Below are positions 1-13,354 of a DNA stretch of 13,354 nt, in pieces (position 1 is the stretch's first letter; each line of letters starts with the position of its first letter). Under the pieces are notes generated by a model. The model ran no database searches. It was not told the DNA's origin and saw only the letters and a program-made list of their open reading frames with translations. Source of the stretch: an uncultured Gammaproteobacteria bacterium (GTDB taxonomy: Bacteria; Pseudomonadota; Gammaproteobacteria; SZUA-140); assembly GCA_945787585.1 (NCBI GenBank), contig CALZIG010000052.1, positions 1 to 13,354 of the forward strand. Direction: 5' to 3'. Both the position numbers and the translations under genes were made by a program.

Positions 1-254
1 ACTAACTGGTTCGCCTGGCGCCAGAAAAATACTTCAGACAGATCACGAAAATACCAGCCATTAGCCACAATGCCATGTACATTTGGCAGACTACCCGTCA
101 GCATCGTCGCCTGAGCGGTACAGGTCAGCGCAGGGAAGACCCCTTCCAGTTGCGCCATAAATCCCTTATCCACAAGACTATTCAAACAGGGCGTATGCTT
201 GCCAAGCAATGACGGCGTTAATCCGACGACATTAATCACGACTAATGGTTTCAT
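1..254 (-). CDS. eboF: EboF-type alkaline phosphatase / nucleotide pyrophosphatase family protein (N-terminal part)
   Basis: Only the first 84 codons lie inside the window; the gene runs off the left edge. The translation starts MKPLVVINVVGLTPSLLG. It continues with FPALTCTAQATMLTG (about residues 40-54), then NVHGIVANGWYFRD and a WRQ motif. This is the opening of the alkaline phosphatase / type I phosphodiesterase superfamily. Thr44 is the likely nucleophile by analogy with nucleotide pyrophosphatases. The metal-binding Asp usually found near the N-terminus is Asn8 here, which may be normal for this subgroup. The ATG overlaps the stop of the upstream eboE gene (ATGA, 251-254), so translation is probably coupled. 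It is the last visible gene of the ino1-eboCABE operon. The substrate is unknown. Confidence 0.85.
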   Translation of the reverse strand, partial: MKPLVVINVVGLTPSLLGKHTPCLNSLVDKGFMAQLEGVFPALTCTAQATMLTGSLPNVHGIVANGWYFRDLSEVFFWRQANQL

Positions 255-1444
255 GCTAATAACCCTCGTGTGCTCATCTGTTGTTCAACCCAGTTCAGCT
301 CTGCCACAATGCCATTAATTAATCCATCATCACTGTCTACTCCAATTGCCGGTGGCAACACCTGCCAGGTGTAGGTTTCAACCTCCAGGTGGGGCCGAAA
401 GTCAGGCGTGGCAGCGATAAAGTCTAATACCATACCAACCGCATCATGCGTCGTGCGGAGAACCCCGTCAGCGATAGAGGCCTGTTGCAACGGGAGATGA
501 AAATGAACACGCCACGGATGAACTGTCGGCAAACCAACCTCAAGCGCGTCGATCAGATCGCTCGCTCCCACTACTTCACCCGCATCATTCAGCGTTCTTA
601 CCTGATGCAGATAACGCGGTTCAACAAATGCCGTTAACGCCTCAATGGCCTGCGTTGTGTTGGGTGATGGCACATGCAGCGCACTGGAGAGCTGAACCTT
701 ACCCACCACAATCCCTGCATCCACGATTTTCGACAGCGATTCCGCCACATCTTCAAACATCACTGCCTGATGACAGACATCAAAACAGATACCCAGATGA
801 GCATCGATCCATGCTCGCGGAAAACCCAACCGTTGTCGTCCCTGCTCCAGCGCATTCACAAAAAAGTTGATCACCTGATCACTACGTTCCAGCACACATC
901 CTGGTTCCATTTCGAGACAGAGGCGAATCTGTTTCCCTGTTTCCTGATAACATTGAGCAAGCGCCTCACTCACGCGTAATAAATGCTCCACCGCCTGCTG
1001 TTGATGCAGCTCAGACCAGCCAGGCGCATCACCCAACGGCAGCGTTGAAATAGTCCCTTCAGTCACCCCCTCAGGCAGACAGCTCGCCAGGATCGATGCC
1101 AGTTCGAGTGTGTAATCATAACGGGCAGGTTGACTCCAGTCCGGTTGATAGACAGCAGACTTAACCTGCTGCTGATGAAAATCACCAAAGGGAAAACCGT
1201 TAAGCGTAATAAGATCGATACTGCACTGGTCAAGTTGATGGTGAAATTCTTTTATCGTCGCCAACGATGCCTGTAATTCACTCGCTGCCCGATGGGAGAG
1301 CCATAAACCGCTATTCATTCGCGGTAAATCACGCTGGTTGCGCACTGCATCCAGGTACTGTTGTAGATTGCCGTTCACTGCTGCAAGCGACTCGCCTGGA
1401 TGGACGTTACTACAATACCCGAGCGCCGAACGGGGATAGTGCAA
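251..1444 (-). CDS. eboE: Metabolite traffic protein EboE (xylose-isomerase-like TIM barrel)
   Basis: About 397 aa with the EboE signature. Near the N-terminus is YCSNVHPGES, followed by TLNGFPFGDFH and GTISTLPLG. The probable metal ligands lie in LEMEPG (Glu), CFDVCHQAV (Asp and His), WRVHFHLP (His) and LEVETYTW (Glu). This is the AP-endonuclease-2 / xylose-isomerase-like barrel. Its role in ebo clusters is linked to metabolite export or processing, but the reaction is unknown. The start is ambiguous. A GTG at 1501 would overlap eboB by 52 nt and has no clear ribosome site. The TTG at 1444 follows GGAGG (1455-1459) by 10 nt and puts the conserved YCSNVHPGE block near the N-terminus, so I prefer it. 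A CTG at 1447 is also possible. The gene ends in an ATGA overlap with eboF. Confidence 0.88.
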   Translation of the reverse strand: MHYPRSALGYCSNVHPGESLAAVNGNLQQYLDAVRNQRDLPRMNSGLWLSHRAASELQASLATIKEFHHQLDQCSIDLITLNGFPFGDFHQQQVKSAVYQPDWSQPARYDYTLELASILASCLPEGVTEGTISTLPLGDAPGWSELHQQQAVEHLLRVSEALAQCYQETGKQIRLCLEMEPGCVLERSDQVINFFVNALEQGRQRLGFPRAWIDAHLGICFDVCHQAVMFEDVAESLSKIVDAGIVVGKVQLSSALHVPSPNTTQAIEALTAFVEPRYLHQVRTLNDAGEVVGASDLIDALEVGLPTVHPWRVHFHLPLQQASIADGVLRTTHDAVGMVLDFIAATPDFRPHLEVETYTWQVLPPAIGVDSDDGLINGIVAELNWVEQQMSTRGLLA

Positions 1445-1449
1445 CAGGG

Positions 1450-2331
1450 CTATCCCTCCACTCGTGGAGTCTGCCCGCGTAGAACCGAATTCTCTTCCCA
1501 CACGGTGCGCTGATCAACCTTCATTGCCGTCACTTCATCCATTGAGATACGCCCACTCTGCGCATAAAACTCAATCGGATTTCTAAACAGCACCAGATCA
1601 ATATCGTCCTCTGAAAAACCGGCAACGCGCATCGCCTCACCCGTCTTCGGTACTTTCAGTGGATCACTACGTCCCCAGTCGGCGGCACTATTGACCATCA
1701 TTTTCTCGGTGCCGTATTGCTGTAACAGCGCAACCATTCTTGCTTCCGACATTTTGGTATCAGGGTAGATCGAGTGGGCACGCCAGCAGCCTGTCTCCAG
1801 CACCAGCGGCAATGTTTGTTCATTGAGGTGGTCCATAATCACCAGTGATTCATCGATACCACACTCTTTGACCAGTGCAAGCGAGCGTTCTGTGCTGCGT
1901 AGCTTGTCACGATGCGAGGTATGAATCATCACGGGTAATTCGTGCTCTTTGGCCAGCTCGAGTTGCTCGGCAAAAAAACGTTCTTCGTTATCGGTGATAT
2001 CGTCAAAACCTATTTCACCCACCGCGACGACCGCATCTTTTTCCAGATAACGCGGCATGATCTTCATCACCGCCTCTGCCAGCGCCACATCGTTGGCCTC
2101 TTTGGGATTCAAGCCAATGGTACAGTAATGATGCACGCCAAACTGACTGGCACGAAAACGTTCCCAGCCGATCAAGCCATCAAAGTAATCGATAAAACTC
2201 CCCGCCTGAGTGCGTGGCTGCCCTGTCCAGAAAGCGGGTTCTACCACCCCCAGGATGCCTGCTGCCGCCATGTTTTCATAATCATCCGTGGTGCGGGACA
2301 TCATGTGGATGTGTGGATCAAAATATCGCAT
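1450..2331 (-). CDS. eboB: TatD family metal-dependent hydrolase EboB
   Basis: A 293-aa TIM-barrel hydrolase of the TatD / amidohydrolase type. The expected metal ligands can be read in order: HxH at His7 and His9 (FDPHIHMMS), Glu106 in VGEIGFDD, His137 in VMIHTSH, His168 in MDHLNEQ and Asp218 in NSAADWG. Classic TatD proteins are 3'-5' DNases, but the ebo paralogues sit in metabolite-traffic clusters and probably act on another substrate. The ATG at 2331 is preceded by AGGTAGGT on the minus strand. It lies 11 nt after the eboA stop, and eboE follows within about 5 nt. No deviation from an intact family member is visible. Confidence 0.88.
   Translation of the reverse strand: MRYFDPHIHMMSRTTDDYENMAAAGILGVVEPAFWTGQPRTQAGSFIDYFDGLIGWERFRASQFGVHHYCTIGLNPKEANDVALAEAVMKIMPRYLEKDAVVAVGEIGFDDITDNEERFFAEQLELAKEHELPVMIHTSHRDKLRSTERSLALVKECGIDESLVIMDHLNEQTLPLVLETGCWRAHSIYPDTKMSEARMVALLQQYGTEKMMVNSAADWGRSDPLKVPKTGEAMRVAGFSEDDIDLVLFRNPIEFYAQSGRISMDEVTAMKVDQRTVWEENSVLRGQTPRVEG
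1455..1459 (-). promoter_or_regulatory. Ribosome binding site deciding the eboE start
   Basis: GGAGG on the minus strand, inside the last codons of eboB. It lies 10 nt before a TTG codon (1442-1444) and 7 nt before a CTG. No ATG or GTG lies in frame at a suitable distance. This supports a non-ATG start just after the eboB stop rather than the GTG 52 nt inside eboB. Confidence 0.55.
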
Positions 2332-2342
2332 CGTCTACCTAC

Positions 2343-3233
2343 CTATCGCTTTAGCGCCTGTGAAAATTCAGGCGTCATTTCCTTTGTATTTTCCGATACA
2401 GCCATGCTTTCAAGCAGTGGCTTAAACTCAGGCCGATCACCCGCAACTGCGGCCAATGCCTCGTAGGCATAATAACGCTGCGCGGAGTCTTCACTCTCCA
2501 GTGCCGCCAGCACCATTCCCTCTGCCCGCTCACTTGCATATGGCATCAACGCTAGCCATATATCTGCTGGTATCGCACGGTCTGCATCGCGTCGTTCATC
2601 AATATAGTCTTCACACATGGCTGAAAGCTCGCGATTGGCGCGCTGCTTGAGTCCGGTGATACTTGACACACCGGCACCATTAAACAGCGCCTTCAATACC
2701 AGTTGATTAAACTCGTAATCACTATAATACATTGCCGGGTAAAGATTAGAATGGGCAATGGTCGCAAACAATAACAGACTATTGATCCGTGCCGCCATCA
2801 AGGCCAGTGGCTTTAAATTTTCGCGGTACTGAAATAGCATCAAACCTCGCATGATCGCGCCACGCTCACGCTCATCGCCCATGCGATAACATCGCTCAAC
2901 CAGCGCGCACTGATCCACGGCTGGCACCAGTAACTGTGCCTGTATTAACAACGCAACACGCGCAACATCAGCCACTTCCCATTCACTGAGATCAAGCTCG
3001 ACTTGCCCCAGCTCAGGAAGCTCAATCACTATGCAGCCATTTTCACTCTCATAAGAGCACCGCTGCGTACCCACTTTGCGTCGCGCGCGGGCCAGTAATC
3101 GTGGTAACAACTCATCAAGCTCGTCAGGTGACGCCTTCTTCAGTTGCATCAGTGAGTCACGCAACCAGGCGCTACCATCAGTGTGGCAGTGTTCGATTAA
3201 GTGTTCATTCAACCGCGCTAAGCAATCATTCAT
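2343..3233 (-). CDS. eboA: EboA family metabolite traffic protein
   Basis: About 296 aa. The family has no known biochemical activity. Recognisable conserved stretches are NQLVLKALFNGAG, followed by ITGLKQRANRELSAMCEDY, ERRDADRAIPADIW and a C-terminal part with helical-repeat character (ALESEDSAQRYYAYEALAA). No signal peptide or membrane segment is seen, so it is probably cytoplasmic. Start choice: a GTG at 3251 would add six residues. The ATG at 3233 has AAGGGG placed 6 nt upstream, so I prefer it, giving MNDCLARLNEHL at the N-terminus. The gene lies 37 nt after eboC and 11 nt before eboB in one transcription unit. The identification rests on family resemblance recalled from memory and on the ebo context. 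Confidence 0.82.
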   Translation of the reverse strand: MNDCLARLNEHLIEHCHTDGSAWLRDSLMQLKKASPDELDELLPRLLARARRKVGTQRCSYESENGCIVIELPELGQVELDLSEWEVADVARVALLIQAQLLVPAVDQCALVERCYRMGDERERGAIMRGLMLFQYRENLKPLALMAARINSLLLFATIAHSNLYPAMYYSDYEFNQLVLKALFNGAGVSSITGLKQRANRELSAMCEDYIDERRDADRAIPADIWLALMPYASERAEGMVLAALESEDSAQRYYAYEALAAVAGDRPEFKPLLESMAVSENTKEMTPEFSQALKR

Positions 3234-3270
3234 CTGCTGCCCCTTACCCACTCGCTTCTATCTCAAACTA

Positions 3271-4158
3271 TTACGTCATATAAATCTTCCGTGCCAGCAA
3301 TCTACCAGGCACCAATAGCATTAATATAATAACACCGCTCCACCACAGGCCGTTCGCAAAAACCAGCATCGCATCGAATAGGATTATCCCCAGCAGAAGT
3401 CGTTTCATCATCGACTGCGTCGATTCAGCAGAAAAATCTTTGCTCAAACGATAAAGAGACCATAACAGGAACAGCGCACCACCCATAAAGGGGATCAGCA
3501 TCCACCACTGATCCAGCAAGCCGACTACCATCAGTACCACCACCAATAACAGACTCGCAATAATTCCAATCGCACAATATGCGATTGAACGCTGTTCAGC
3601 ACTCCCTGCTGTAATGCTACTAGCGGTTTCAATCTTGCTCAAAAATGTTAATCCGACGATATAACAAAACAATGGGAGTGGCAGCAATAGAAAAAGTGGC
3701 GAAGATAAAAATGGGGCGAACCCCAACAGCCAGTTAAGGTAGCGACACAGGCCCATGACATATGGACCAGCATCGCCATGCTTCGCCTTAGCGTTGTAGA
3801 GCACGATCGATATCGCCAGCAAAATAGAGATTCCCAGCGCAAGCATCCCCAGCAAAGATGCCGCAATAAGCCCTACCAACAACAGCGACCATCCGAGCTG
3901 CCACCCTCGGCGCAATGCAATACGTCCGGATGCCAGTGGGCGTGCAGGCCGCTCACGGCGATCTTCTGCGATGTCATAGCAGTCGTTGAGTACCATCCCG
4001 GCACTATAAAGAGAGGCAGATGTCATCAGTAATAAAGAGAGCACTTCCCAGCAGAAACCACCCTGCCCACCAATAAAGTAGGCCGCAAGAATATTCGAGA
4101 AGGCACTAAATAGTGCGGGAAGTCGTATTAGTCGGAAGTAATCAAGCATCGCAGCCAT
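3271..4158 (-). CDS. eboC: UbiA-like membrane protein EboC
   Basis: A 295-aa, very hydrophobic protein of the UbiA prenyltransferase superfamily, with several transmembrane helices along most of its length. The first Asp-rich motif is intact: N58-D59-x-x-D62 in VLNDCYDIAEDRRERPARPLASGRI. The second region reads YNAKAKHGDAGPYVMGLCRYLNWLLG, where an Asn stands in the position often held by the first Asp. UbiA enzymes attach polyprenyl chains to acceptors in the inner membrane. In ebo clusters EboC is thought to act in metabolite traffic, but its substrate is unknown. The ATG at 4158 lies 23 nt after the ino1 stop with a weak GGTGA upstream; a second ATG three codons in (4149) is possible. Confidence 0.88.
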   Translation of the reverse strand: MAAMLDYFRLIRLPALFSAFSNILAAYFIGGQGGFCWEVLSLLLMTSASLYSAGMVLNDCYDIAEDRRERPARPLASGRIALRRGWQLGWSLLLVGLIAASLLGMLALGISILLAISIVLYNAKAKHGDAGPYVMGLCRYLNWLLGFAPFLSSPLFLLLPLPLFCYIVGLTFLSKIETASSITAGSAEQRSIAYCAIGIIASLLLVVVLMVVGLLDQWWMLIPFMGGALFLLWSLYRLSKDFSAESTQSMMKRLLLGIILFDAMLVFANGLWWSGVIILMLLVPGRLLARKIYMT

Positions 4159-4181
4159 CGTTTGTTCTGATCACCCGCATA

Positions 4182-5240
4182 TCAGAAGGCACTATTTGAT
4201 GCAGTCTCCAATGCGATCTTTTCCGCCTCATCATCTGCAATGTTCTGTGGCGGCGACTTGAAATAGAAGGGAGTAATATCAACTGGGCCACCCAGCCCCC
4301 TTTTCTTTGCCGCGGCGACAAAACGAACCACATCCATCACCACACCGGCACTATTGGGTGAATCACTCACCTTTATTTTGCACTCGATCTCAAGTGGAGT
4401 GCCGCCAAAGGCAGTACCCGATAAATTAATGTAGGCTACTTTTTGATCACCCAGAAACTGAATGTAATCCGTCGGAGAAATATGTACCTGCGAATCTGCA
4501 ACAGCGGGGATTTCATGTTGCACCGAGGAAGCCTTCGATTTCTTTTTTGAGTGAAGCCGCTCAGACTCCAGCATATTGCGAAAATCCATATTGCCGCCAA
4601 AGTTGAGCTGATAGGTTGAATCGACCTCACCGCCGCGTTGTTCGAATAACCTCGCCAATGCGCGATGGATAATCGTCGCGCCAATTTGCGACTTCACATC
4701 ATCGCCGGCACAAGGCACGCCTGCCTCTGAGAAGCGCTGCGCCCAATCAGGATTCGAGACAATAAACGACGGAATGGCATTTACGAAACCGATGTTATGC
4801 GCAAGACACATTTCAGCCCAGAACTGACTCGCCTCATCCGATCCGACAGGCAGATAATTGACCAGCACATCAGGTCGGGTGGACGATAGTATTTCGTTAA
4901 CCGCATCCGCAGTGCCATCAACGACGTTAACTACATCCTTATACACGGCACCAATACCATCCAGCACTGGCGCCGCACTGACGCGACACGAACCAGCCGC
5001 CATCGAATCGACCAATTTCGTTGTATTATTTTTGCCCGCAAAAAGGGCTTCATTTAACGGTTTACCTACTTTATCTTGATCAACATCGAATGCAGCCACA
5101 AATTCAAGATCAGACGCCGAATAACCACAGACATCTTTTATGATAAGACCCGATGCATCCGGATTCAGCGTGTAATATGCAACACCCTGCACCAGTGAAC
5201 TCGCGCAATTCCCAACGCCGACTAACGCTACTTTTATCAT
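4182..5240 (-). CDS. ino1: Inositol-3-phosphate synthase (Ino1)
   Basis: 352 aa, close to the roughly 360-aa mycobacterial-type myo-inositol-1-phosphate synthases and shorter than eukaryotic forms. The enzyme converts glucose 6-phosphate to inositol 3-phosphate with bound NAD. The N-terminus carries the Rossmann NAD motif VALVGVGNCASSLVQG (residues 4-19). The catalytic half has VLVNYLPVGSDEAS, then DDVKSQIGAT, LNFGGNMDFRNML and the lysine-rich segment SERLHSKKKSK expected for phosphate binding. The ATG at 5240 follows GGTGGGG on the minus strand. It is the first gene of the ebo operon, with no clear promoter consensus in the 150 nt before it. Inositol phosphate could be a building block or carrier group for whatever the ebo proteins handle; this is inference. 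Confidence 0.95.
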   Translation of the reverse strand: MIKVALVGVGNCASSLVQGVAYYTLNPDASGLIIKDVCGYSASDLEFVAAFDVDQDKVGKPLNEALFAGKNNTTKLVDSMAAGSCRVSAAPVLDGIGAVYKDVVNVVDGTADAVNEILSSTRPDVLVNYLPVGSDEASQFWAEMCLAHNIGFVNAIPSFIVSNPDWAQRFSEAGVPCAGDDVKSQIGATIIHRALARLFEQRGGEVDSTYQLNFGGNMDFRNMLESERLHSKKKSKASSVQHEIPAVADSQVHISPTDYIQFLGDQKVAYINLSGTAFGGTPLEIECKIKVSDSPNSAGVVMDVVRFVAAAKKRGLGGPVDITPFYFKSPPQNIADDEAEKIALETASNSAF

Positions 5241-5393
5241 TTAAACCCCACCGAAACGGATGTTTTGAGAACATAAAATCAATAAAAACGACTGTAACAT
5301 ATTAGAATGCTGCCATTAATAAGCGCTGCCATGCTGATCACTTTCCGATGATATTGCCGGAGAGGCTTGGGGTTATCCTTAAATGCAGCCAAT

Positions 5394-5423
5394 AAAAAAC
5401 CCCCGGCGCTGTCGCACCGAGGG
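5394..5423 (-). terminator. Intrinsic terminator following the tRNA-Glu remnant
   Basis: Read on the minus strand it is CCCTCGGTGC, loop GACA, GCGCCGGGGG, then six T. All ten stem positions pair if two G-U wobbles are allowed. On the plus strand the same two positions become C-A mismatches, so the signal belongs to minus-strand transcription. It begins 9 nt past the CCA end of the tRNA-Glu fragment, the normal place for a tRNA terminator. It can now also stop readthrough from cysC before the ino1-ebo operon. Confidence 0.88.
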
Positions 5424-5432
5424 TTTTGTATT

Positions 5433-5449
5433 TGGCGTCCCCAAGGGGA
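5433..5449 (-). other. tRNA-Glu 3'-end fragment, putative attachment site of an integrated element
   Basis: On the minus strand this reads TCCCCTTGGGGACGCCA. That matches the end of a bacterial tRNA-Glu: T-stem 3' strand CCCCT, acceptor 3' strand TGGGGAC, discriminator G and encoded CCA. Further upstream the match to GGTTCGAA breaks down (only a TCG is in register), and no anticodon or D arm follows. The gene is therefore truncated, not a complete tRNA. A 3' fragment with its own terminator but no 5' part is the classical displaced end left by elements that integrate into tRNA genes. By orientation the element would extend to the right, with the rebuilt tRNA-Glu at its other end. Confidence 0.72.
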
Positions 5450-5487
5450 GGCGATAGATGGCCTGTTTTTGTAGTGTACCAAAGGCA

Positions 5488-5507
5488 CACACGTAACGTT
5501 GCTTGTG
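5488..5507. repeat. Imperfect palindrome next to the tRNA remnant
   Basis: CACA(CGT)AACGTT(GCT)TGTG is symmetric at 14 of 20 positions around AACGTT. It lies 38 nt to the island side of the tRNA-Glu remnant. It could be an integrase or excisionase arm site or an operator, or it could be chance. There is no second copy that I can see. Confidence 0.25.
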
Positions 5508-5626
5508 AATTCAATGAAACACCATAATAAACAGCTATTTACAACCATACAACACCCAAGCCTCTCTTCATGTGCCACCATTTGTATACACTTGCAAGCG
5601 CGATGTTATTTGTAAAAAGAGGTTTA

Positions 5627-6223
5627 TCAGGCATTCAAAGAAAAAATATTTCTTTGCATTAATTGTGATAGTAATTGTTGAATACACTCGTCAGGCGAAT
5701 GCTTTCCTGTGTCTAAAACTATTTCAGGGGATAATGGTTCTTCATAGGGAGAAGAGATACCGGTGAATTCAGGGATATCACCGGCTCGCGCACTCAGATA
5801 AAGCCCTTTGGCATCTCTCTGTTCGCAGATACTCAAATCACATTTACAGTATACTTCGATAAAGTCTCCTTTTTCAAAGAGATCTCTAACGCGATCTCGA
5901 TCTGATCGTATCGGTGAAATAACAGCCGTTAGTGTAATTAAGCCAGCATCGCTTACTAGTTTTGTCACTTCACCGATTCTTCGGATATTTTCAGTGCGAT
6001 CTGCGATGCTGTACCCAAGATCTTTGCACAGTCCTTGCCTTATACTATCACCATCGATGATATAGGCCCTACAACCTAACGCTTGGAGTTGTTCTTTCAG
6101 TAAACAGGAAAGCGTCGATTTTCCTGAGCCAGATAGCCCTGTGAACCAGATCCCAACTGACTTATGTCTGTTTAGTGTTTCCATGCGTTCGCGTGTAACC
6201 GTATCGAGTGGCTCTCTATTCAT
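5627..6223 (-). CDS. cysC: Adenylyl-sulfate kinase (APS kinase)
   Basis: 198 aa, the usual length of a stand-alone APS kinase. It phosphorylates adenosine 5'-phosphosulfate with ATP to make PAPS, the sulfuryl donor for sulfotransferases and for assimilation. Features: P-loop GLSGSGKST (residues 29-37), DGDSIRQGL (57-65) and DLGYS for APS binding, RTENIRRIGEV (76-86), Ser103 in ISPIRSDR at the position of the phosphorylated serine, and the lid segment KGLYLSARAGD then FTGISSPYE. The ATG at 6223 has only a weak GAAG upstream. A second Met at residue 14 is possible but would remove part of the N-terminal region. It has no cysD, cysN or cysH neighbour and no sulfotransferase in view. It is transcribed divergently from the NRPS operon and ends 177 nt from the tRNA remnant. 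Confidence 0.95.
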   Translation of the reverse strand: MNREPLDTVTRERMETLNRHKSVGIWFTGLSGSGKSTLSCLLKEQLQALGCRAYIIDGDSIRQGLCKDLGYSIADRTENIRRIGEVTKLVSDAGLITLTAVISPIRSDRDRVRDLFEKGDFIEVYCKCDLSICEQRDAKGLYLSARAGDIPEFTGISSPYEEPLSPEIVLDTGKHSPDECIQQLLSQLMQRNIFSLNA

Positions 6224-6285
6224 TACTACTTCGTTTTATAGTTCATTCGATCCTAGACTGGGCTTCTCCCTGTACCGAAATGCTT

Positions 6286-6291
6286 ATTATA
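6286..6291 (-). promoter_or_regulatory. Possible -10 box of the cysC promoter
   Basis: A perfect TATAAT on the minus strand, ending 62 nt before the cysC ATG. The matching -35 position (17-nt spacer) reads GATTTT, which is poor, so either the promoter depends on an activator or the match is chance in AT-rich sequence. Confidence 0.3.
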
Positions 6292-6457
6292 TAACGCTTT
6301 TCCTCCAAAAATCACAGCCTCGTGCGATACCACGAAACAGCCATAACGGAAGCTATGCAAACTATCGCCCTATGAAGGGAATTTCAATTTGATCACTCAG
6401 ATGTTCCCTTCGTTTATTTCCCCTGCGGGCGCTTTCTCCAGCTTTCTGGAATAACGC

Positions 6458-6637
6458 ATGAACCAGGCATTAATACAAACCTATGCCATCCAAGAACTAT
6501 ATGCTTATGCGGCGATGGTAAATATCTATGACAAACTGCTGTTCCTCTCTCTCTTGGGGGTGAGATACTGCCATTTAGGAGTTATAGTCAGGTATTTTCC
6601 TAGCAAATGGAGAAGGAGGATCAATAGCTTTTTCTAA
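6458..6637 (+). CDS. Small unrecognised ORF (59 aa)
   Basis: ATG to TAA, 59 codons, beginning MNQALIQTYAIQELYAYAAM, with a hydrophobic middle (LLFLSLLG, then LGVIV) and a basic end (KWRRRINSFF). It could encode a single-span membrane peptide with a positive tail. The only ribosome-site candidate is a GGA about 9 nt upstream, which is weak. I recognise no family. It may equally be noncoding sequence or a remnant of an older gene, so I rate it low. Confidence 0.2.
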   Translation: MNQALIQTYAIQELYAYAAMVNIYDKLLFLSLLGVRYCHLGVIVRYFPSKWRRRINSFF

Positions 6638-6751
6638 CAATTGGTACACTCCATAGCGGCAAGTCACTGCGTGCTCCACCAGGGCCAATATTATCTAAAC
6701 AACTACTTTACAAACTAGTGTATCTTTAAAGCGCACGCCCCTAATAAGATC

Positions 6752-6775
6752 AGGAGAACAATGCGACGTGTGTGA
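6752..6775 (+). promoter_or_regulatory. Ribosome site with a four-codon mini-ORF over the metallo-hydrolase start
   Basis: AGGAG (6752-6756) is ideally spaced (4 nt) for an ATG at 6761, but that frame reads ATG CGA CGT GTG TGA and stops. The long gene is in another frame, starting at a GTG (6768) 11 nt from the same AGGAG. Ribosomes may start at the ATG, stop, and restart at the overlapping GTG. Alternatively the sequence may carry a one-base indel, or the GTG may be used directly. Confidence 0.45.
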
Positions 6776-8384
6776 CTTAGATTTAAGCTGTAGTTACTTA
6801 AAACCCTCCGTAAAATTCGAGCCCCTAATCTGGCGGTGGTACGCATGGACTCACTTGGTCTCCCCTATGTCCGCTGGGTTTGTGATGCAACACAGGTATT
6901 TAAAGATCTTAGACTCATTTCTAAAAGCACCGAAAGTCCATTCCCAAGCCATATCCAATCCAGCTTTAATCGGTGGGCCGTTTATGGATTTTCCTGAAAA
7001 CTGTCTCGACGCTGTCGAACAGTTAATTCAACAAACTCATCAAGACTGCGCCCATTTGCTAGAACTTGCGAACAAATTCTCAGATATACAAGAACATCTT
7101 TCAAATCACGTTCATGGTGAATCACTACAAACCCAATATGAAAATTTACCTCCCTCCCTTCACGGCCTAGTTGAACTCAACTACGACATCAATAACCACA
7201 GCTATTGTCGATTGATCGAACCCTTGGTTTACTTGCGTCACTACGATGAAACCGCACAATCTATGGCGATATCACCACTTAATAGTGATGGCCGACCTTT
7301 CACTTTGAGCACGCCACGCATTGATGAACCAGAGGATAATTCCCATATCCATTTACGCATCCCTTTCCGCAGCCATCTATGGGATGGGTTATTTGCAATG
7401 CGAACACAAGCTGCAGATATGAACGTACTGGGAAAAGACTACGGCCTTAATCCAGAAACCATACGCGGATTAACGCAGTTTTTAACAAATGAACCCATTC
7501 CCACACCAAGTGATAGCGTTTATTTAGGTCAAGGAGTTAGAGTCCGATATTTTGGACATGCATGTATATTGCTTCAAACTTCCGCATGCACCGTGCTGAT
7601 TGATCCGCTTATCAGCTACGATATCCAAACAGACTCACGCTTCAGTTATACCGACCTGCCAGATCAAATTGATTTAATTCTGGTTACCCATGCCCATAAA
7701 GATCATATACTCCTTGAAACACTCATACAGCTGCGTCATAAAACTAAGAAGATCATTGTCCCAGCAAATAACCGCAGCAGTCCGGCCGACCCGTCACTAA
7801 AACTGGCTCTAAATGCCATCGGTTTTGAGCAAGTTGAAGAGGCAACATGTTTGCAACGACTCCCAATCACGGAAGGCGAAGTTCTCTGTCTCCCATTTTT
7901 CGGTGAGCACGGTGATTTGGATGTTGACACCAAGCTTAGCTACCGTATTCGGTTTGGAGAAATCAACATTCTTTTTTTTGCGGACTCTAGAATCATCGAT
8001 GATCGAGTCTACTCCGATCTGGTTCCCCTGATCGGTGACGTCGAGATGATGTTTATTGGACTCGCTAGCCAAGGAGCCCCTATGAGTTGGCTGTATGGTC
8101 CTTATCTCACGCAAACCATCAACAGAAACGACGATAATAACCGCAGTTTGTCTGCCTCCGATGCTAACCATGCGATAAAATGCACGTCTATATTCAAACC
8201 AAAGCAGGCTCATATCTATGCCATGGGTAGAGAACCATGGCTGCAATTTATCATGGCCCAGAACGATCAAAACCAACACCAAGAAAATATTGAGGTTGAA
8301 AAGTACTTGAGCTGGTGTCGCCATCAAGACATAGAATCTAAGCTACTATACATGAGGCAACAATGGGAATTGATTCCGAAGTAA
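6768..8384 (+). CDS. MBL-fold metallo-hydrolase of an NRPS cluster (two-part, 538 aa)
   Basis: The C-terminal half (about residue 255 to 538) is a metallo-beta-lactamase fold close to the UlaG / Lactamase_B_3 group. It has YFGHACILL with His264, the HxHxDH motif His308, His310, Asp312 and His313 (LVTHAHKDHILLE), His381 in FGEHGDLD and Asp406 in FFADSR. The N-terminal half (WRWYAW at 22-27, NPALIGGPF, ELNYDINNHSYCRLIE) has no other domain that I recognise. From memory, long MBL proteins with a similar N-terminus occur beside NRPS genes; their reaction is not established, and tailoring, product release or protection are all possible. The GTG start (6768) lies 11 nt from AGGAG. The conserved WYAW region lies in this frame, which supports it from near the start. 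The 3' end overlaps the NRPS gene by 22 nt, so the two are probably translated together. Confidence 0.85.
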   Translation: MCDLDLSCSYLKPSVKFEPLIWRWYAWTHLVSPMSAGFVMQHRYLKILDSFLKAPKVHSQAISNPALIGGPFMDFPENCLDAVEQLIQQTHQDCAHLLELANKFSDIQEHLSNHVHGESLQTQYENLPPSLHGLVELNYDINNHSYCRLIEPLVYLRHYDETAQSMAISPLNSDGRPFTLSTPRIDEPEDNSHIHLRIPFRSHLWDGLFAMRTQAADMNVLGKDYGLNPETIRGLTQFLTNEPIPTPSDSVYLGQGVRVRYFGHACILLQTSACTVLIDPLISYDIQTDSRFSYTDLPDQIDLILVTHAHKDHILLETLIQLRHKTKKIIVPANNRSSPADPSLKLALNAIGFEQVEEATCLQRLPITEGEVLCLPFFGEHGDLDVDTKLSYRIRFGEINILFFADSRIIDDRVYSDLVPLIGDVEMMFIGLASQGAPMSWLYGPYLTQTINRNDDNNRSLSASDANHAIKCTSIFKPKQAHIYAMGREPWLQFIMAQNDQNQHQENIEVEKYLSWCRHQDIESKLLYMRQQWELIPK

Positions 8385-11300
8385 GTAAATCAACGGTATT
8401 ATCTGTATTCAACGAACTAGCGCATGAACACCCTAATCGTATCGCTCTGGAAGACCTTCAGGGAACGCTAACCTACCGTGAACTAAGTACGCAAAGTAAT
8501 AACCTTGCAAACTATCTGCTGTCAGAAAGCAATAACTTCGACACATGTGCTTCTCCCAAAATAGCATTTTGCATGCAGAACCCACGTCACATGATTGTGG
8601 CAATGCTATCAATATTAAAAGCCGGCGCAGCATTTGTGCCTCTCGATATCGAGGCCCCCGAGAAGCGTCAACTACACATCATACAAGATGCTAACGTAAC
8701 GCTATTGCTCACAGACACCATACTCCCTTGGGAGCCAACATGCTCAACACTCAACCTTACTGAGCTACCCCTCCCCTCACATTATCCAGGTGTAAACGAA
8801 CGACAATTCCTCCTCAATCGCTCAGACCTCGCCTACATCATCTATACATCAGGTTCCACCGGTGAACCCAAAGGCGTGATGATTGAACACACAGGATTAC
8901 TTAACCTGGCTATGGAGCAGATACGCCTTTTTGGTATCAATTCCAATGATCGCATCATGCAATTCGCAGCACCCCAGGTTGATGCAGCCGTAGCAGAATG
9001 GTTTCAAGCACTGACATCAGGTGCTTGTTTGTGCTTATTATCCAAACAGGCCAATGAAAGCCGTACCCTGGCATTGCTAAAAGTCGCCCCGGTTTTAAAG
9101 CCAAGCGTCATTACTTTACCCCCAAGTGTTGTATCATCCTTACCTGAAGATGCATTACCCTCTATCAAAACTCTGATCCTCGCTGGTGAACCCGTACCAG
9201 AAAAAATACTGGTCACTTGGCGTGACCGCGCTCAACTTTTCAATGCCTATGGCCCAACAGAAGCAACCGTTTGCACAACCATCCATCGATTCAACAACAG
9301 TTCACGCTGCAATCAAATCGGTAAAGCTATCGCTGGCATCAACACGTTAGTATTGAACGAACGAAAGGAACTAGTTGCAGCCAACGAAACCGGAGAGCTC
9401 TACATATCCGGTTTAGGGTTAGCTAAAGCATATTGCAATGACTCTATACTCACTGACGAAAAATTTTTAAATACCATTGTCCCTGGTCAGCGATATTATC
9501 GCAGTGGAGACAAGGTGCGTTTACTCGATAATGGTGAACTGGAATATATTGGACGTACAGATCATCAGCTGAAAATTGGTGGGTTTCGCATTGATCCTAG
9601 TGAAATTGAAGCAATGCTATGCAAACATGACGATATAACACAAGCCGTGGTTGGATTAGGTAAAAACTCAGGATTGCTGGAAGCACACATCATATCTCTA
9701 CGAGATATCGCCGAAAAAGATTTATCCTTCTTCCTTTCTGAGTATTTGCCAGACTACATGCTACCCAAATCAATTAGACAGCATGAAAGTTTCCCAACCA
9801 CAGCTTGGGGGAAAATTGATCGCTCCCATTTGTTATCTTCCAGCTCAGAAAAAGAAAGAATCGAAAATGAAACGACTGATGATGCGATAAACCTCTTACT
9901 CACTATCTTCAACACCCTACTCCCCGACGATGAAATCAATGCTGACGATGACTTTTTCGCCTTAGGCGGAGACTCTATCCTTGCAATTCAATTGGTTGTT
10001 GAAGCGGAAAAAAAGGGGCTAGTTATAGATATTGGTGATATCTTTGATTTTCCAAACGCCAATACCCTCGCCTTGAAAGCCAAGCCCATCCCATCTAAAA
10101 GTAATACTAAAATACATACCAAAGGCAACAAAGAAAAGAGCCACGTCACTCCAATCATGCACTGGTTCTATGAACAAAAAATAGAGAATCCAAACTACTA
10201 TAACCAAACCGTTCTCCTAGAGCCTCATCAACCTTTAACATGTGATCTACTTGAAAATTTCTTACATTACATTTTCCAAACCCACCCAACCCTAACGATG
10301 CGTAGCAAGATTAATGATCTTGGTGTTTGGTCTCACGAGCTTCACCAAAATACTATCAACAACTCCCTCTTAATCCGGAGCAATAGTCTCGATCAAATCA
10401 GCGAGGCTGATCACTGCACTTATATCCTCGATGCAACAGAAATACTCCAGCGAGAATTGTGTATAGAACGCGGCCCAGTCATGGGTGCTATGATTTTTTC
10501 GGCTAAAAGCCGGGCAAAGTATATATTCATCGCCATTAATCATTTGCACGTCGACACCGTATCCTGGCGAATTATGTTGGATGACCTCCAGGTGTTATAC
10601 GAGCAATACCAAAACAATCAACCCTTAAGTCTATTGCCAGAACAAACCAGCTACTTTGAATGGGCAGAGCAATTGGAGAGCTACGCCCAGACATCAGATA
10701 TGCTGACGGCAGCACAATGGTGGTCCAACCATTTACCCGATGAAATACAGAACTTACCCGCAGATAAACCAGGCGGAGTCAATGACAATGTTTCGAATAG
10801 TATATGTGCCATCAACTTAGATACCGAATATACGCAACGGCTAGTCAAAGAAGTCCCCAAAGCACTCAATACACACATACATGAGATATTGGTTTCTGCT
10901 CTATTTCTTTCCTATCGTCAATGGAGTGGCCAGTTCTCACTATTGTTACATATGGAAGGACACGGCCGAGAGCCAATTATTAAAGAAGCCAATATTAGCC
11001 GGACTGTCGGCTGGTTTACATCATTGTTTCCGTTACACCTTTCAATACCTTCTGAAAAGCTTTCTTTACGAGATACGCTACTGGCCATAAAAGAGCTCAT
11101 CCGCAGCTTGCCACAAAAAGGGGTTAGTTACGGTATAGCGCGCTATCTGCAGAATTCGAATGCCCACGGCGATCAGCTCATTAGCAAACCTTTGCCTCAA
11201 ATTTCGTTTAACTATATGGGGCGCTCGGAAGCAACAATTGATAACCACCAGTTATTTTCATTTAGCTCACTTGATCGAGGAGCTTATATTGCAGCAGAAA

Positions 11301-13354
11301 ACCATCGTCAACATCTAATAGATATTTCAGGCGAGATCAGCAACGGAAGCTTAAGCTTAGATTTCATCTATAGCGCCCACCACTTTTCCCAAGCCCACAT
11401 ACAGAAATGGACATCGCTGTTCAAAACCAACTTGGAACGCATAATCGACTTCTGTTGTAATTCAGATCAATGTACCTATTCCCCAAGTGACTTAAATTCC
11501 CCAGAAATTGCCCAATCAGAGTTAGATTATCACTTCAGTCACACCAATAACTTGGTTGCACTCTACCCACTCACACCGATGCAATCAGGATTTTTACTCC
11601 ACCATCTCAAATCACCAGACGATGATACCTACGTTGTTCAGAGTGCTATGAAGTATCGGGGGAAAATTGATCAGGAGGCTTTCAAACAAGCCTGGCAAGC
11701 ACTCGCTCAACACCATGCAATCTTTCGCAAGGGAATTATCTGGTCAAATGTTTTTCAGCCTCTTCAGTTTGAGCTTTCAGAAATTAATCATCCTTTAACA
11801 ATCCAAACTGTCCCTGCTGACACTTCCATAGAAGCATATATCAAAACTGTTTTGCATCAGGAACGTCGTTTAGGGTTCAACTTAAATACTCCGCCTTTAT
11901 CGAGATTACATCTACTGCAAGGTAGTAATGATGAAAACTATCTACTATGGACGCATCACCATATCATCCTGGATGGTGGTAGCGATGGACTAATATGGGG
12001 TGACTTCTGGAAATCCTACAACCAAATTAAAAACCATAAACCTGTATCACTTAATCCTACTCCACCCTTTCAAGGGTATGTCAAATGGGCAAGCCAGCAA
12101 CCTCTATATCAATCTGCATGGCTCGAATACTTAGATAACTACAAAAAATGGCGTCTATCACAGGCGATAACTGATAGTAACGGGCGTGATGAGCAACCGG
12201 TAATAATAACCCCGGCACTCCCCGATCTCCATAGGCAAATAATCAACCGCTGCAAGCAGTGGGGTATAACACCTCACTCATTTTTTCATGGTACCTGGTC
12301 ATTATTACTTCACATCCTAAGTCAGCAGGATGACGTCCTCCACGGCGTGACCCTATCCGGGAGAACTGTTCGTTTCCCCAACATAGAGGATATGAGTGGG
12401 CTATTCATTAATACTTTACCTATACGCACCCGTGTTAATGCCAGCAGCACACCTGATAACTACTTCAAAAATATACAAAAAACGTTGGCATTTTTGAACA
12501 CGCATTGCACAGCACCTTTAAGCAAAATCCAAAGTTGGTTGGGCTTGGATGCTGGACAACGACTCTTCGACACGGTTCTGGTCTTTGAAAACTATGATTT
12601 CATACCTAAACATCAGGCATTGACTCAGGGTGTATCTTGGCAACGTTGTTATGCGATAGAGAAAAGCGAATATCCACTAACGGTATCTGTCTTTGTCAAA
12701 GAGAGGCTTAGAATAGAAATGCTATTTAATGACAATAGTATGTGTAAATCTACAGTACAAAGCCTAGCCGATTACTACCTTAAGCTTATTACCGAAACAA
12801 TCAACCCCACCCATAGAACACTTGGGGATATTTTAGCCACATGTCATAAACAGGTATTAAAGCCAGTATGGAACAACAACCATCGCCACAAGCAGTATGT
12901 ATCCCCCAAAGGCATCCATAATTTAATGATTGAGGAAATGCGTAAGCACCTCCACAACACTGCTGTCCGCTATCGTGACACAGCCCTCACCTATCACGAT
13001 GTTCTGGAACAAGCTCAATATTTCTCAAAGTATTTACAACATCAAGGGGTAATGGAAAATTCATGTGTCGCCCTATGTTTTTCTCGTTCACCCGCCTTTG
13101 CAATCTGCCAATTAGCCGTATTAATGGCGGGAGCAACATTTCTCCCCATTGATCCTGCCAATCCGGTAAAACGTATTGTCTATATGCTCAGCCAGAGTAA
13201 AGCCCAAACCTTGATATGCACTCAAGCATTCAAATCGATTAACGAAATGATCGATATTCAGACAATTGTACTTTCTGGAGACAGCGAAAACCCAAAATTT
13301 AACGACGCGCAAGTACTTTCAGCTTCCCCTTCAAGTATAATTAAAACACCAAGC
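8363..13354 (+). CDS. Non-ribosomal peptide synthetase, A-PCP-E-C-A..., 3' end outside window
   Basis: One uninterrupted frame of 1664 codons from ATG 8363 (GAGG 5 nt upstream) to the window edge, so the gene is incomplete. Domains in order: adenylation (about 15-492), peptidyl carrier (about 505-570, Ser538), epimerization (about 597-1035), condensation (about 1067-1495) and a second adenylation domain (from about 1520, cut after its early motifs). Having no condensation domain in front, it looks like an initiation module of the gramicidin S / tyrocidine type. It would activate one amino acid, flip it to the D form and hand it to the next module. The 5' end overlaps the metallo-hydrolase gene by 22 nt. 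Its G+C is visibly lower than that of the ebo genes: one sampled 60-nt line has 23 G/C, against 32 in an eboE line. Later modules, the thioesterase and exporters must lie to the right. The product is unknown. Confidence 0.95.
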   Translation, partial: MGIDSEVSKSTVLSVFNELAHEHPNRIALEDLQGTLTYRELSTQSNNLANYLLSESNNFDTCASPKIAFCMQNPRHMIVAMLSILKAGAAFVPLDIEAPEKRQLHIIQDANVTLLLTDTILPWEPTCSTLNLTELPLPSHYPGVNERQFLLNRSDLAYIIYTSGSTGEPKGVMIEHTGLLNLAMEQIRLFGINSNDRIMQFAAPQVDAAVAEWFQALTSGACLCLLSKQANESRTLALLKVAPVLKPSVITLPPSVVSSLPEDALPSIKTLILAGEPVPEKILVTWRDRAQLFNAYGPTEATVCTTIHRFNNSSRCNQIGKAIAGINTLVLNERKELVAANETGELYISGLGLAKAYCNDSILTDEKFLNTIVPGQRYYRSGDKVRLLDNGELEYIGRTDHQLKIGGFRIDPSEIEAMLCKHDDITQAVVGLGKNSGLLEAHIISLRDIAEKDLSFFLSEYLPDYMLPKSIRQHESFPTTAWGKIDRSHLLSSSSEKERIENETTDDAINLLLTIFNTLLPDDEINADDDFFALGGDSILAIQLVVEAEKKGLVIDIGDIFDFPNANTLALKAKPIPSKSNTKIHTKGNKEKSHVTPIMHWFYEQKIENPNYYNQTVLLEPHQPLTCDLLENFLHYIFQTHPTLTMRSKINDLGVWSHELHQNTINNSLLIRSNSLDQISEADHCTYILDATEILQRELCIERGPVMGAMIFSAKSRAKYIFIAINHLHVDTVSWRIMLDDLQVLYEQYQNNQPLSLLPEQTSYFEWAEQLESYAQTSDMLTAAQWWSNHLPDEIQNLPADKPGGVNDNVSNSICAINLDTEYTQRLVKEVPKALNTHIHEILVSALFLSYRQWSGQFSLLLHMEGHGREPIIKEANISRTVGWFTSLFPLHLSIPSEKLSLRDTLLAIKELIRSLPQKGVSYGIARYLQNSNAHGDQLISKPLPQISFNYMGRSEATIDNHQLFSFSSLDRGAYIAAENHRQHLIDISGEISNGSLSLDFIYSAHHFSQAHIQKWTSLFKTNLERIIDFCCNSDQCTYSPSDLNSPEIAQSELDYHFSHTNNLVALYPLTPMQSGFLLHHLKSPDDDTYVVQSAMKYRGKIDQEAFKQAWQALAQHHAIFRKGIIWSNVFQPLQFELSEINHPLTIQTVPADTSIEAYIKTVLHQERRLGFNLNTPPLSRLHLLQGSNDENYLLWTHHHIILDGGSDGLIWGDFWKSYNQIKNHKPVSLNPTPPFQGYVKWASQQPLYQSAWLEYLDNYKKWRLSQAITDSNGRDEQPVIITPALPDLHRQIINRCKQWGITPHSFFHGTWSLLLHILSQQDDVLHGVTLSGRTVRFPNIEDMSGLFINTLPIRTRVNASSTPDNYFKNIQKTLAFLNTHCTAPLSKIQSWLGLDAGQRLFDTVLVFENYDFIPKHQALTQGVSWQRCYAIEKSEYPLTVSVFVKERLRIEMLFNDNSMCKSTVQSLADYYLKLITETINPTHRTLGDILATCHKQVLKPVWNNNHRHKQYVSPKGIHNLMIEEMRKHLHNTAVRYRDTALTYHDVLEQAQYFSKYLQHQGVMENSCVALCFSRSPAFAICQLAVLMAGATFLPIDPANPVKRIVYMLSQSKAQTLICTQAFKSINEMIDIQTIVLSGDSENPKFNDAQVLSASPSSIIKTPS
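8405..9838 (+). other. NRPS adenylation domain A1, aromatic-like pocket
   Basis: All core motifs are present: LAYIIYTSGSTGEPKGV (A3, about 156-172), NAYGPTE (A5, 294-300), GELYISG (A6), YYRSGD (A7), GRTDHQLKIGGFRI (A8) and TTAWGKIDR (A10, Lys484). Placing the ten specificity positions by eye against GrsA gives D207, A208, A211, S255, I272, A274, A295, V303, C304, K484, that is DAASIAAVCK. This resembles phenylalanine-type codes (DAWTIAAVCK as I recall). Ala replaces Trp at position 239 (GrsA numbering) and Ser replaces Thr at 278, which would widen the pocket and perhaps suit Tyr or Trp. Asp207 indicates an ordinary alpha-amino acid. Confidence 0.8.
9875..10072 (+). other. NRPS peptidyl carrier domain
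   Basis: DDDFFALGGDSILAIQLV contains the phosphopantetheine attachment serine, Ser538. The GGDS form of the motif is typical of carrier domains placed before an epimerization domain, which is the case here. Confidence 0.92.
10151..11467 (+). other. NRPS epimerization domain
   Basis: E-domain motifs in order: PIMHWFYE (597-604), NHLHVDTVSWRIMLDDL (from 726), MEGHGRE (864-870), RTVGWFTSLFPLHL, KGVSYGIARYL and ISFNYMGR (947-954). The active-site motif HHxxxDG reads N726-H727-x-x-x-D731-T732. The second His, the one regarded as essential, and the Glu of EGHGRE (Glu865) are kept, so activity is likely despite two substitutions. The domain converts the carrier-bound L-aminoacyl group to an L/D mixture for the D-selective condensation domain that follows. 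Confidence 0.9.
11561..12847 (+). other. NRPS condensation domain (probably D-to-L type)
   Basis: It starts at LYPLTPMQSGFLLHH (1067 onward) and has an intact HHxxxDG (His1199, His1200, Asp1204, Gly1205 in HHHIILDGGS). The later motifs are MSGLFINTLPIRTRV and FDTVLVFENYDF (from 1402). Because it directly follows an epimerization domain, it is expected to accept a D-configured donor. The class is inferred from position, not from a phylogeny. Confidence 0.88.
12920..13354 (+). other. NRPS adenylation domain A2, N-terminal part
   Basis: It shows ALTYHDVLEQAQ (A1-motif region) and LAVLMAGATFLPIDPANPVKRI (A2 motif). The window ends before the pocket residues, so its amino acid cannot be predicted. 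Confidence 0.88.

Follow-up and report, generated by a model that had tools for sequence, protein, structure and literature searches.

We analyzed a 13,354-nt window, contig CALZIG010000052.1 (C52) of an uncultured Gammaproteobacteria bacterium known from a metagenome-assembled genome (MAG; G000, 2.36 Mb, 321 contigs, 86% complete). Very probably, the window holds the far-end attachment junction (attR) of an integrative element with a large serine recombinase (LSR) as its integrase, from a clade specific for tRNA-Glu, in which the element's own attachment site (attP) lies within the 3' end of the recombinase gene and the C-terminal tail of the protein is exchanged upon integration. In the mechanism we propose, integration at the T-stem/acceptor junction of tRNA-Glu would leave the recombinase body at the restored tRNA on another contig (C189), where the last nine codons and the stop of the integrated recombinase would be read from the tRNA antisense strand. 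The element's own tail codons would be moved to the far end, window 5444-5527, and the tRNA-type terminator would be pushed outside the element. In relatives, the element-coded tail would most likely serve as a degradation tag, making the free-state recombinase short-lived.

Results

A displaced tRNA-Glu end marks an island junction

On the minus strand, positions 5449-5433 of the window read TCCCCTTGGGGACGCCA, 17 nt that also form the 3' terminus of an intact tRNA-Glu(ttc) carried on C189, which adjoins a tRNA-Ala(ggc) (Table 1). ARAGORN detected no tRNA in the window, and no tRNA body precedes the 17-nt piece. By exact search, the inner 16-mer of this core occurs exactly twice in the genome (window and intact tRNA-Glu), the chance expectation for a given 17-mer being about 3e-4 by simple arithmetic, and the window holds no further core at up to two mismatches. 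After a 9-nt gap there is a hairpin followed by a T-run (folded stem including flanking A/U, minus 5427-5396), with a minimum free energy of −31.2 kcal/mol and a z of −7.2 over a 49-nt stretch. The hairpin was missing from the output of a consensus terminator scanner, and an Rfam search of window 4800-6800 returned nine matches, none at the gathering score. An initial annotation of the window had described a 17-nt tRNA-Glu 3' end, a 9-nt gap and a terminator with no tRNA body, and the identity to C189, the ARAGORN result and the fold confirm this description.

Near the core, the guanine-cytosine (GC) content falls from 0.503 (left side) to 0.431 (right side), the left-side value equalling that of sampled host loci (0.503 over 21 loci of G000, 53.6 kb, some overlapping). 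With a breakpoint at the tRNA-Glu 3' end and this change in GC, window 5433-5449 is a true island junction with the island to its right, as the initial annotation had placed it.

Among genus relatives, the intact tRNA-Glu is followed by a similar terminator in G005 (73 nt at 92%) and G002 (69 nt at 84%), by a different terminator in G004, and by recombinase sequence in G003 and G009; displaced cores, too, have homologous terminators 3' of them, both in G001 and, in G005, where the island has its far end. The terminator was considered as proof of native chromosome and dropped in that role: G005 carries copies at both the tRNA and the displaced end, and the G004 tRNA has another terminator, so the window terminator shows only that it is of the tRNA-Glu type.

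Table 1 Features of the window (positions numbered from its first letter).
Feature	Positions	Strand	Basis
Predicted crossover dinucleotide (AA on +, TT on −), centre of the TCCCC-AA-GGGGA dyad	5443..5444	.	Centre of symmetric attP profile, 38 distinct loci
Displaced 3' piece of tRNA-Glu (3' strands of T-stem and acceptor, discriminator, CCA), shared core of the probable attR	5433..5449	-	Identity to C189 tRNA-Glu 3' end; 2 genome copies
Putative element-coded recombinase C-terminal tail, split from its gene by integration: RGGDRWPVFVVYQRHTRNVACEFNETP and stop	5444..5527	+	Recombinase frame; matches P0002 tail RGDTRWPVFVVYQRNTAK...
Element-side attP arm (predicted), conserved with far end of G005 island	5450..5504	+	Part of 114-nt match, 88% identity, over arm, core and terminator
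tRNA-Glu type intrinsic terminator, now outside element	5394..5427	-	Fold −31.2 kcal/mol, z −7.2; homologues 3' of intact tRNA-Glu in G005, G002
ino1-like inositol-1-phosphate synthase, first gene outside element	4182..5240	-	PF01658; TIGR03450 below cut-off
ebo genes (eboC-like, eboA domain, TatD-like, eboE), outside element	251..4158	-	NF035940 (below cut-off), NF035938, PF01026, NF035939
cysC (adenylyl-sulfate kinase), first gene inside island at this junction	5627..6223	-	PF01583, NF003013
CmlA-like di-iron beta-hydroxylase (CmlA_N and metallo-beta-lactamase fold), island cargo	6768..8384	+	PF18456
Non-ribosomal peptide synthetase (NRPS), island cargo, cut by contig end	8363..13354	+	PF00501, PF00550, PF00668; 2 AMP-binding, 1 carrier and 2 condensation stretches

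The integrase is a large serine recombinase running into tRNA-Glu

Contig C189 stops 178 nt past the tRNA, and those bases code for a protein end, ...NRLCMASPRGFEPLLPP and a stop. In all, C189:1-216 codes for 72 residues that run antisense into tRNA-Glu and end in MASPRGFEPLLPP before the stop (...MASP/RGFEPLLPP, the slash marking entry into the tail). All 60 residues before the core (60/60) are identical to those of P0039, a 516-residue protein with a Resolvase domain, and the genus relative G003 has a full 516-residue LSR (PF00239 and PF07508) at the same position at the tRNA. Pfam gave no match for the 72-residue C-terminus, which is identified through G003 and P0039; the element with this open reading frame (ORF) is thus a serine-recombinase element. 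The initial annotation had expected a tyrosine recombinase and was mistaken in this, the ORF entering the tRNA being the C-terminus of a large serine recombinase. It had also foreseen a second copy of the 17-mer with an integrase beside it: the intact tRNA-Glu and the adjoining end of an integrase gene are both in the genome, on the other contig.

The G003 element looks conjugative, with TraH, TraG_N, TraI_2 and a coupling protein in addition to the recombinase, and a relative on a viral contig, L211, adjoins baseplate and tail-fibre genes. Beside the L211 recombinase, near the tail-fibre genes, is a reverse transcriptase gene (11640-13058), possibly part of a diversity-generating retroelement. 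Contigs C189 of G000 (L073, at position 1) and C42 of G009 (L070, at its end) both break within the recombinase at almost the same distance from the tRNA, some 170-180 nt beyond it, which would be expected if each sample contained several versions of the gene. In G001 (L071, contig C3), a tyrosine integrase gene (2564-3790) stands beside a 47-nt tRNA-Glu 3' piece (4169-4215) that has a different terminator; this tRNA-Glu thus seems to be a target of a second element family, unrelated to the first.

The window arm reads as the separated tail of the recombinase

Translated in the frame of the recombinase, the window's island side yields ASP/RGGDRWPVFVVYQRHTRNVACEFNETP and a stop, the arm itself reading ...RGGDRWPVFVVYQRHT. 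The homologue P0002 ends in ASP/RGDTRWPVFVVYQRNTAKVIDKFGESFVYRRG, or RGDTRWPVFVVYQRNT... when set beside the window arm, and in the same frame the G005 island reads RGDDRWPVFVAYQRHTPNVAS... at its far end. Given this frame continuity and the likeness to the P0002 tail, the arm is most plausibly the 3' coding end of the recombinase itself, severed by integration. Since the recombinase frame continues at both ends, attP would lie inside the recombinase gene, and integration would swap an element-coded for a tRNA-coded tail.

At two loci of relatives, L075 (G002 C17) and L076 (G006 C153), recombinase ends in open frames of 111 and 158 residues are followed by an own-type tail, with no tRNA within the fetched 3.2 kb; these may be attP-like remnants or tandem junctions.

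Both tails occur across a wide clade

Scanning gave 123 loci, 45 from genomes and 78 viral, of which 115 were examined and eight partial viral loci (L208, L210, L213, L216, L217, L220, L221 and L222) were left out. The recombinase ended inside tRNA-Glu at 37 of the 45 genome loci and inside tRNA-Ala at one; one more had a tRNA-coded tail at a contig end, three had an own tail, one had no recognisable core and two were open. At the 70 viral loci, an own tail after the same core predominated (40), with nine recombinases ending inside tRNA-Glu, 11 showing a tRNA-coded tail at a contig end, eight lacking that core and two open. Two loci were classed by hand, L109 as having an own tail of nine residues and L160 as having a tRNA-coded one at the end of its contig, and the own-tail class may mix free recombinases with junctions of two tandem elements. 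In the protein set, for which 120 of 1413 homologues were used (8000 candidates scored), three of 120 had no recognisable core.

Identical recombinase bodies were found with two tails, in L146 and P0064 (498/498 residues) and in L152, which is partial, and P0043 (422/422 residues). Different C-termini in the free and integrated states are therefore seen on identical bodies, and the two contigs of G000 point to the same for the window's element. A displaced core lay on the contig and strand of the recombinase in 10 of 19 named genomes, 8.5-49.5 kb apart, including L263 and L228 (35.5 and 14.9 kb), which were counted as partners after the result was seen because they share contig and strand with the recombinase; no such pair was found in the remaining nine.

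Some relatives have other targets. The locus ending in tRNA-Ala is L136, and three viral loci without this core (L161, L167 and L175) have a tRNA-Asp gene just past the recombinase. Genome G072 contains two recombinases (L100 and L104), of which one has a tRNA-coded and the other an own tail.

attP is symmetric around a central dinucleotide

Across 38 distinct own-tail loci, attP is symmetric around a central A/N dinucleotide (CCCC-AN-GGGG); 37 of the 38 have G at −20, and 37 have C at +20. Left of the centre, TGGCGTCCCC, the acceptor 3' strand plus CCA needed to restore the tRNA, is almost invariant, an invariance that follows in part from the recognition rule for own tails; right of the centre, the sequences soon diverge. 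Position −20 is G at 42 of the 43 integrated loci read (43 of 47 in the integrated class, the other four having no CCCCA string). Position +20 is C in all eight displaced cores first counted as partners and in the two reclassified later, and in none of four core matches without a partner. Both arms in G000 fit the family, with GG at −20/−19 on C189 and CC at +19/+20 (5462-5463) in the window. From the symmetry of attP around the dinucleotide, the crossover is predicted to lie at 5443-5444.

One element or two

We infer that C189 and C52 are the two ends of one element. Several observations weigh against this reading and the proposed tail exchange. The two ends are on separate contigs of a fragmented MAG, and the rest of the recombinase gene, including the catalytic domain, was not found in that MAG. 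The body of P0002, whose tail the window matches, is 49% identical to that of P0039, which matches C189, so either tail and body types track loosely or two elements are involved. The window tail has no terminal A or AA, the tails of P0002, G005 and the G001/G002/G004 type likewise being without a final A. Lastly, the tails at the ten displaced cores run from 19 to 102 codons, with only five at 17-25 codons and only five ending in A.

The window and C189 ends might instead come from separate elements, stacked in tandem at one tRNA-Glu, which would accommodate the discordance between the P0002-like tail and the P0039-like body and leave the window an attR-type end all the same. Stacking does occur in relatives: in G005 the tRNA core is followed after 171 nt by a second core, and a third one, which bears an arm, lies at a distance of 11.4 kb. 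Two or more arm types exist in the genus, and the ebo side of the window may itself be an older insertion. Set against this are the mere two cores that exact search finds in G000, although the MAG is 86% complete, and the lack of any further core in the window at up to two mismatches. We regard tandem elements as unlikely.

The element-coded tail as protein and as possible degron

We then considered whether the element-coded tail is a protein sequence or has no protein role, with only the attP DNA arm conserved and the frame running to a chance stop. In eight disjoint tail pairs, picked by eye after the tails had been seen and hence a non-random sample, differences over tail codons 3-8 numbered 7/9/10 by codon position; this lack of bias is expected of a DNA site and agrees with a tail without a role. 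From tail codon 9 onward, differences concentrate at the third position (20/22/53, p 5.7e-6), which argues for coding constraint, some single pairs (e.g. L188/L189) showing little codon bias. Proline at tail codon 7 was tried as a protein signal and rejected, as it is given by the C+19/C+20 of the DNA dyad. The spread of displaced tails in the named genomes, and a tRNA-coded tail that is dictated by the tRNA, likewise suit a tail without a role.

Tail ends speak for the opposite. Clustered at 60% identity, 47 of 57 tail clusters are 17-25 codons long. Compared with mechanical six-frame ORFs of at least 150 residues as controls, 35 of 57 clusters end in A against 253 of 1667 (Fisher 1e-14), and 18 of 57 end in AA against 62 of 1667 (Fisher 1e-11), with varying Ala codons and stops at the tail ends. 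By individual sequence, 57 of 90 distinct tails end in A, often as -VA or -AA; among listed proteins, none of 63 nine-residue tails ends in AA. On balance, a tail without a protein role seems improbable, to much the same degree as tandem elements.

Degrons of the ssrA type are recognised by ClpXP. In their C-terminal composition, the A-ending tails resemble an ssrA-like degron, and the swap of one tail for another would alter the behaviour of the recombinase. It is possible, and we put it forward tentatively, that the free recombinase is unstable, given an Ala-ending tail in more than half of the lineages sampled, and becomes stable once integrated, which might limit re-integration after excision. 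The recombinase would in this way write a proteolytic switch into the gene that encodes it, in a widespread tRNA-Glu LSR clade of phages and conjugative elements with attP inside the gene.

Readings without a serine recombinase

A tyrosine-recombinase island at tRNA-Glu, the type of element first expected here, would agree with the scope of the tRNA-island finder Islander, which is confined to tyrosine integrases as the only ones known to target tRNA genes (PMC4383910), and with the tyrosine integrase beside a 47-nt tRNA-Glu piece on the phage-like contig of G001. The ORF entering the G000 tRNA-Glu is, however, a serine-recombinase C-terminus, and the core is 17 nt long and dyad-centred at the T-stem/acceptor junction, as opposed to 47 nt reaching the anticodon arm, which makes such an island very improbable. 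A decayed tRNA-Glu pseudogene or a chance 17-mer with no mobile element, which would account for the missing tRNA body and nothing more, is less probable still in view of the sharp T-stem breakpoint, the GC step from 0.50 to 0.43 near the core, the tail homology to P0002 and the arm homology to G005; in our view it is refuted by the tail being in frame with the recombinase.

Flanks and cargo

The element does not include the ebo side, which may be either chromosome or DNA that inserted earlier at this hot spot. The initial annotation had called it the older chromosome; its position outside the element and its host-like GC agree with that label, but ino1 and eboE are absent from all nine same-genus genomes (0/9; five with completeness of 90% or more and contamination of 5% or less), so the label is unproven. 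The empty site it had pictured, a full tRNA-Glu followed by this terminator and ino1, was recovered in part: the tRNA is directly followed by this terminator type in G002 and G005, the sequence beyond it being unlike the window's in these two, which were the ones compared, and without ino1 in any of the nine. For the CmlA-like gene, the nine relatives gave a single weak local match (G005, 30% identity over 93 residues). As ino1, eboE and, but for that match, the CmlA-like gene are lacking in relatives, both flanks are variable.

Window 6768-13354, with the CmlA-like beta-hydroxylase gene followed by the NRPS gene, is a biosynthetic cluster on a tRNA-Glu element. Plasmid records gave only partial, distant matches, the annotated ones being ino1 or cysC among the 20 of 32 matching records listed, and none to P0039. 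No virion genes were found among the three right-hand genes scanned with Pfam (7.9 kb of island in the window).

Other cargo was seen at the same tRNA in relatives. The G005 stretch from tRNA-Glu to the arm-bearing core (L065, C12, 7033-18453) encodes Hsp20, a protease and an ABC transporter; G005 yielded no relative of the recombinase, and the stretch may be an old stress island that has lost its mobility. In G002 (L067, C16, 8215-13522), a DUF4007 gene lies downstream of tRNA-Glu, and its neighbours presumably resemble a defence cluster.

Discussion

The recombinase tail within the junction is more interesting than the junction itself. Serine integrases are prized genome-writing tools, and a clade that acts on tRNA-Glu with predictable attP and bacterial (attB) sites makes new tools aimed at a gene shared among bacteria testable. 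The integrase protein itself would record whether the element is free or integrated. The principle is known from the Mx8 integrase and the BPs repressor; if our reading is true, it would extend to a second recombinase family.

Classical large serine integrases (phiC31, Bxb1, A118) have a Resolvase domain followed by a Recombinase domain, and a short symmetric attP with a central dinucleotide; their usual targets are protein genes. The window clade resembles them in its Resolvase and Recombinase domains and in a short, two-fold symmetric attP around a dinucleotide. We know of no case among phiC31/Bxb1/A118-type integrases in which attP is part of the integrase ORF. The main text of a survey of LSRs does not contain the word 'tRNA' (PMC10083194). 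Among the papers listed by a literature search, judged mostly by titles and the openings of abstracts, none dealt with a tRNA-Glu serine recombinase or a tail swap in tRNA-targeting serine recombinases.

Islander-type tRNA islands share with the window element a restored tRNA, a displaced 3' fragment at the other end and an integrase beside the tRNA, and differ in that the integrase of the window element is a serine recombinase (PMC4383910). In the ssrA islands of Dehalococcoides, DsiB is likewise a serine recombinase; its 3' end overlaps the left attachment site (attL) in an RNA gene, that for tmRNA, and tandem islands occur there too. The authors suggest that DsiB is perhaps fully functional only when encoded on the circularised element (PMC3146451). 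Unlike the window clade, DsiB has the tmRNA T-loop as its target and a proposed partner, DsiA, and its tail was found to be divergent and left unexplained (PMC3146451). The window clade, for its part, has tRNA-Glu as target, a defined dyad attP, both tails on identical proteins and coding constraint in the tail.

For an attachment site inside a gene, two phages offer parallels. In Mx8, attP lies in the integrase gene and integration gives int a new 3' end, modifying specificity, according to a review (PMC6070905). This matches the arrangement proposed here; Mx8 is placed, however, among tyrosine-family integrases that extend across attP (PMC4383910), to which the recombinase family of the window is unrelated. 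In mycobacteriophage BPs, attP lies in the repressor gene, the viral form having 33 additional C-terminal residues with an ssrA-like tag that is lost on integration (PMC4557955). An attP within a gene and a C-terminal extension lost upon integration are thus common to BPs and the proposed window element. The switched gene is the repressor in BPs, whereas in the window clade it would be the recombinase itself, with a putative degron suggested by C-terminal composition.
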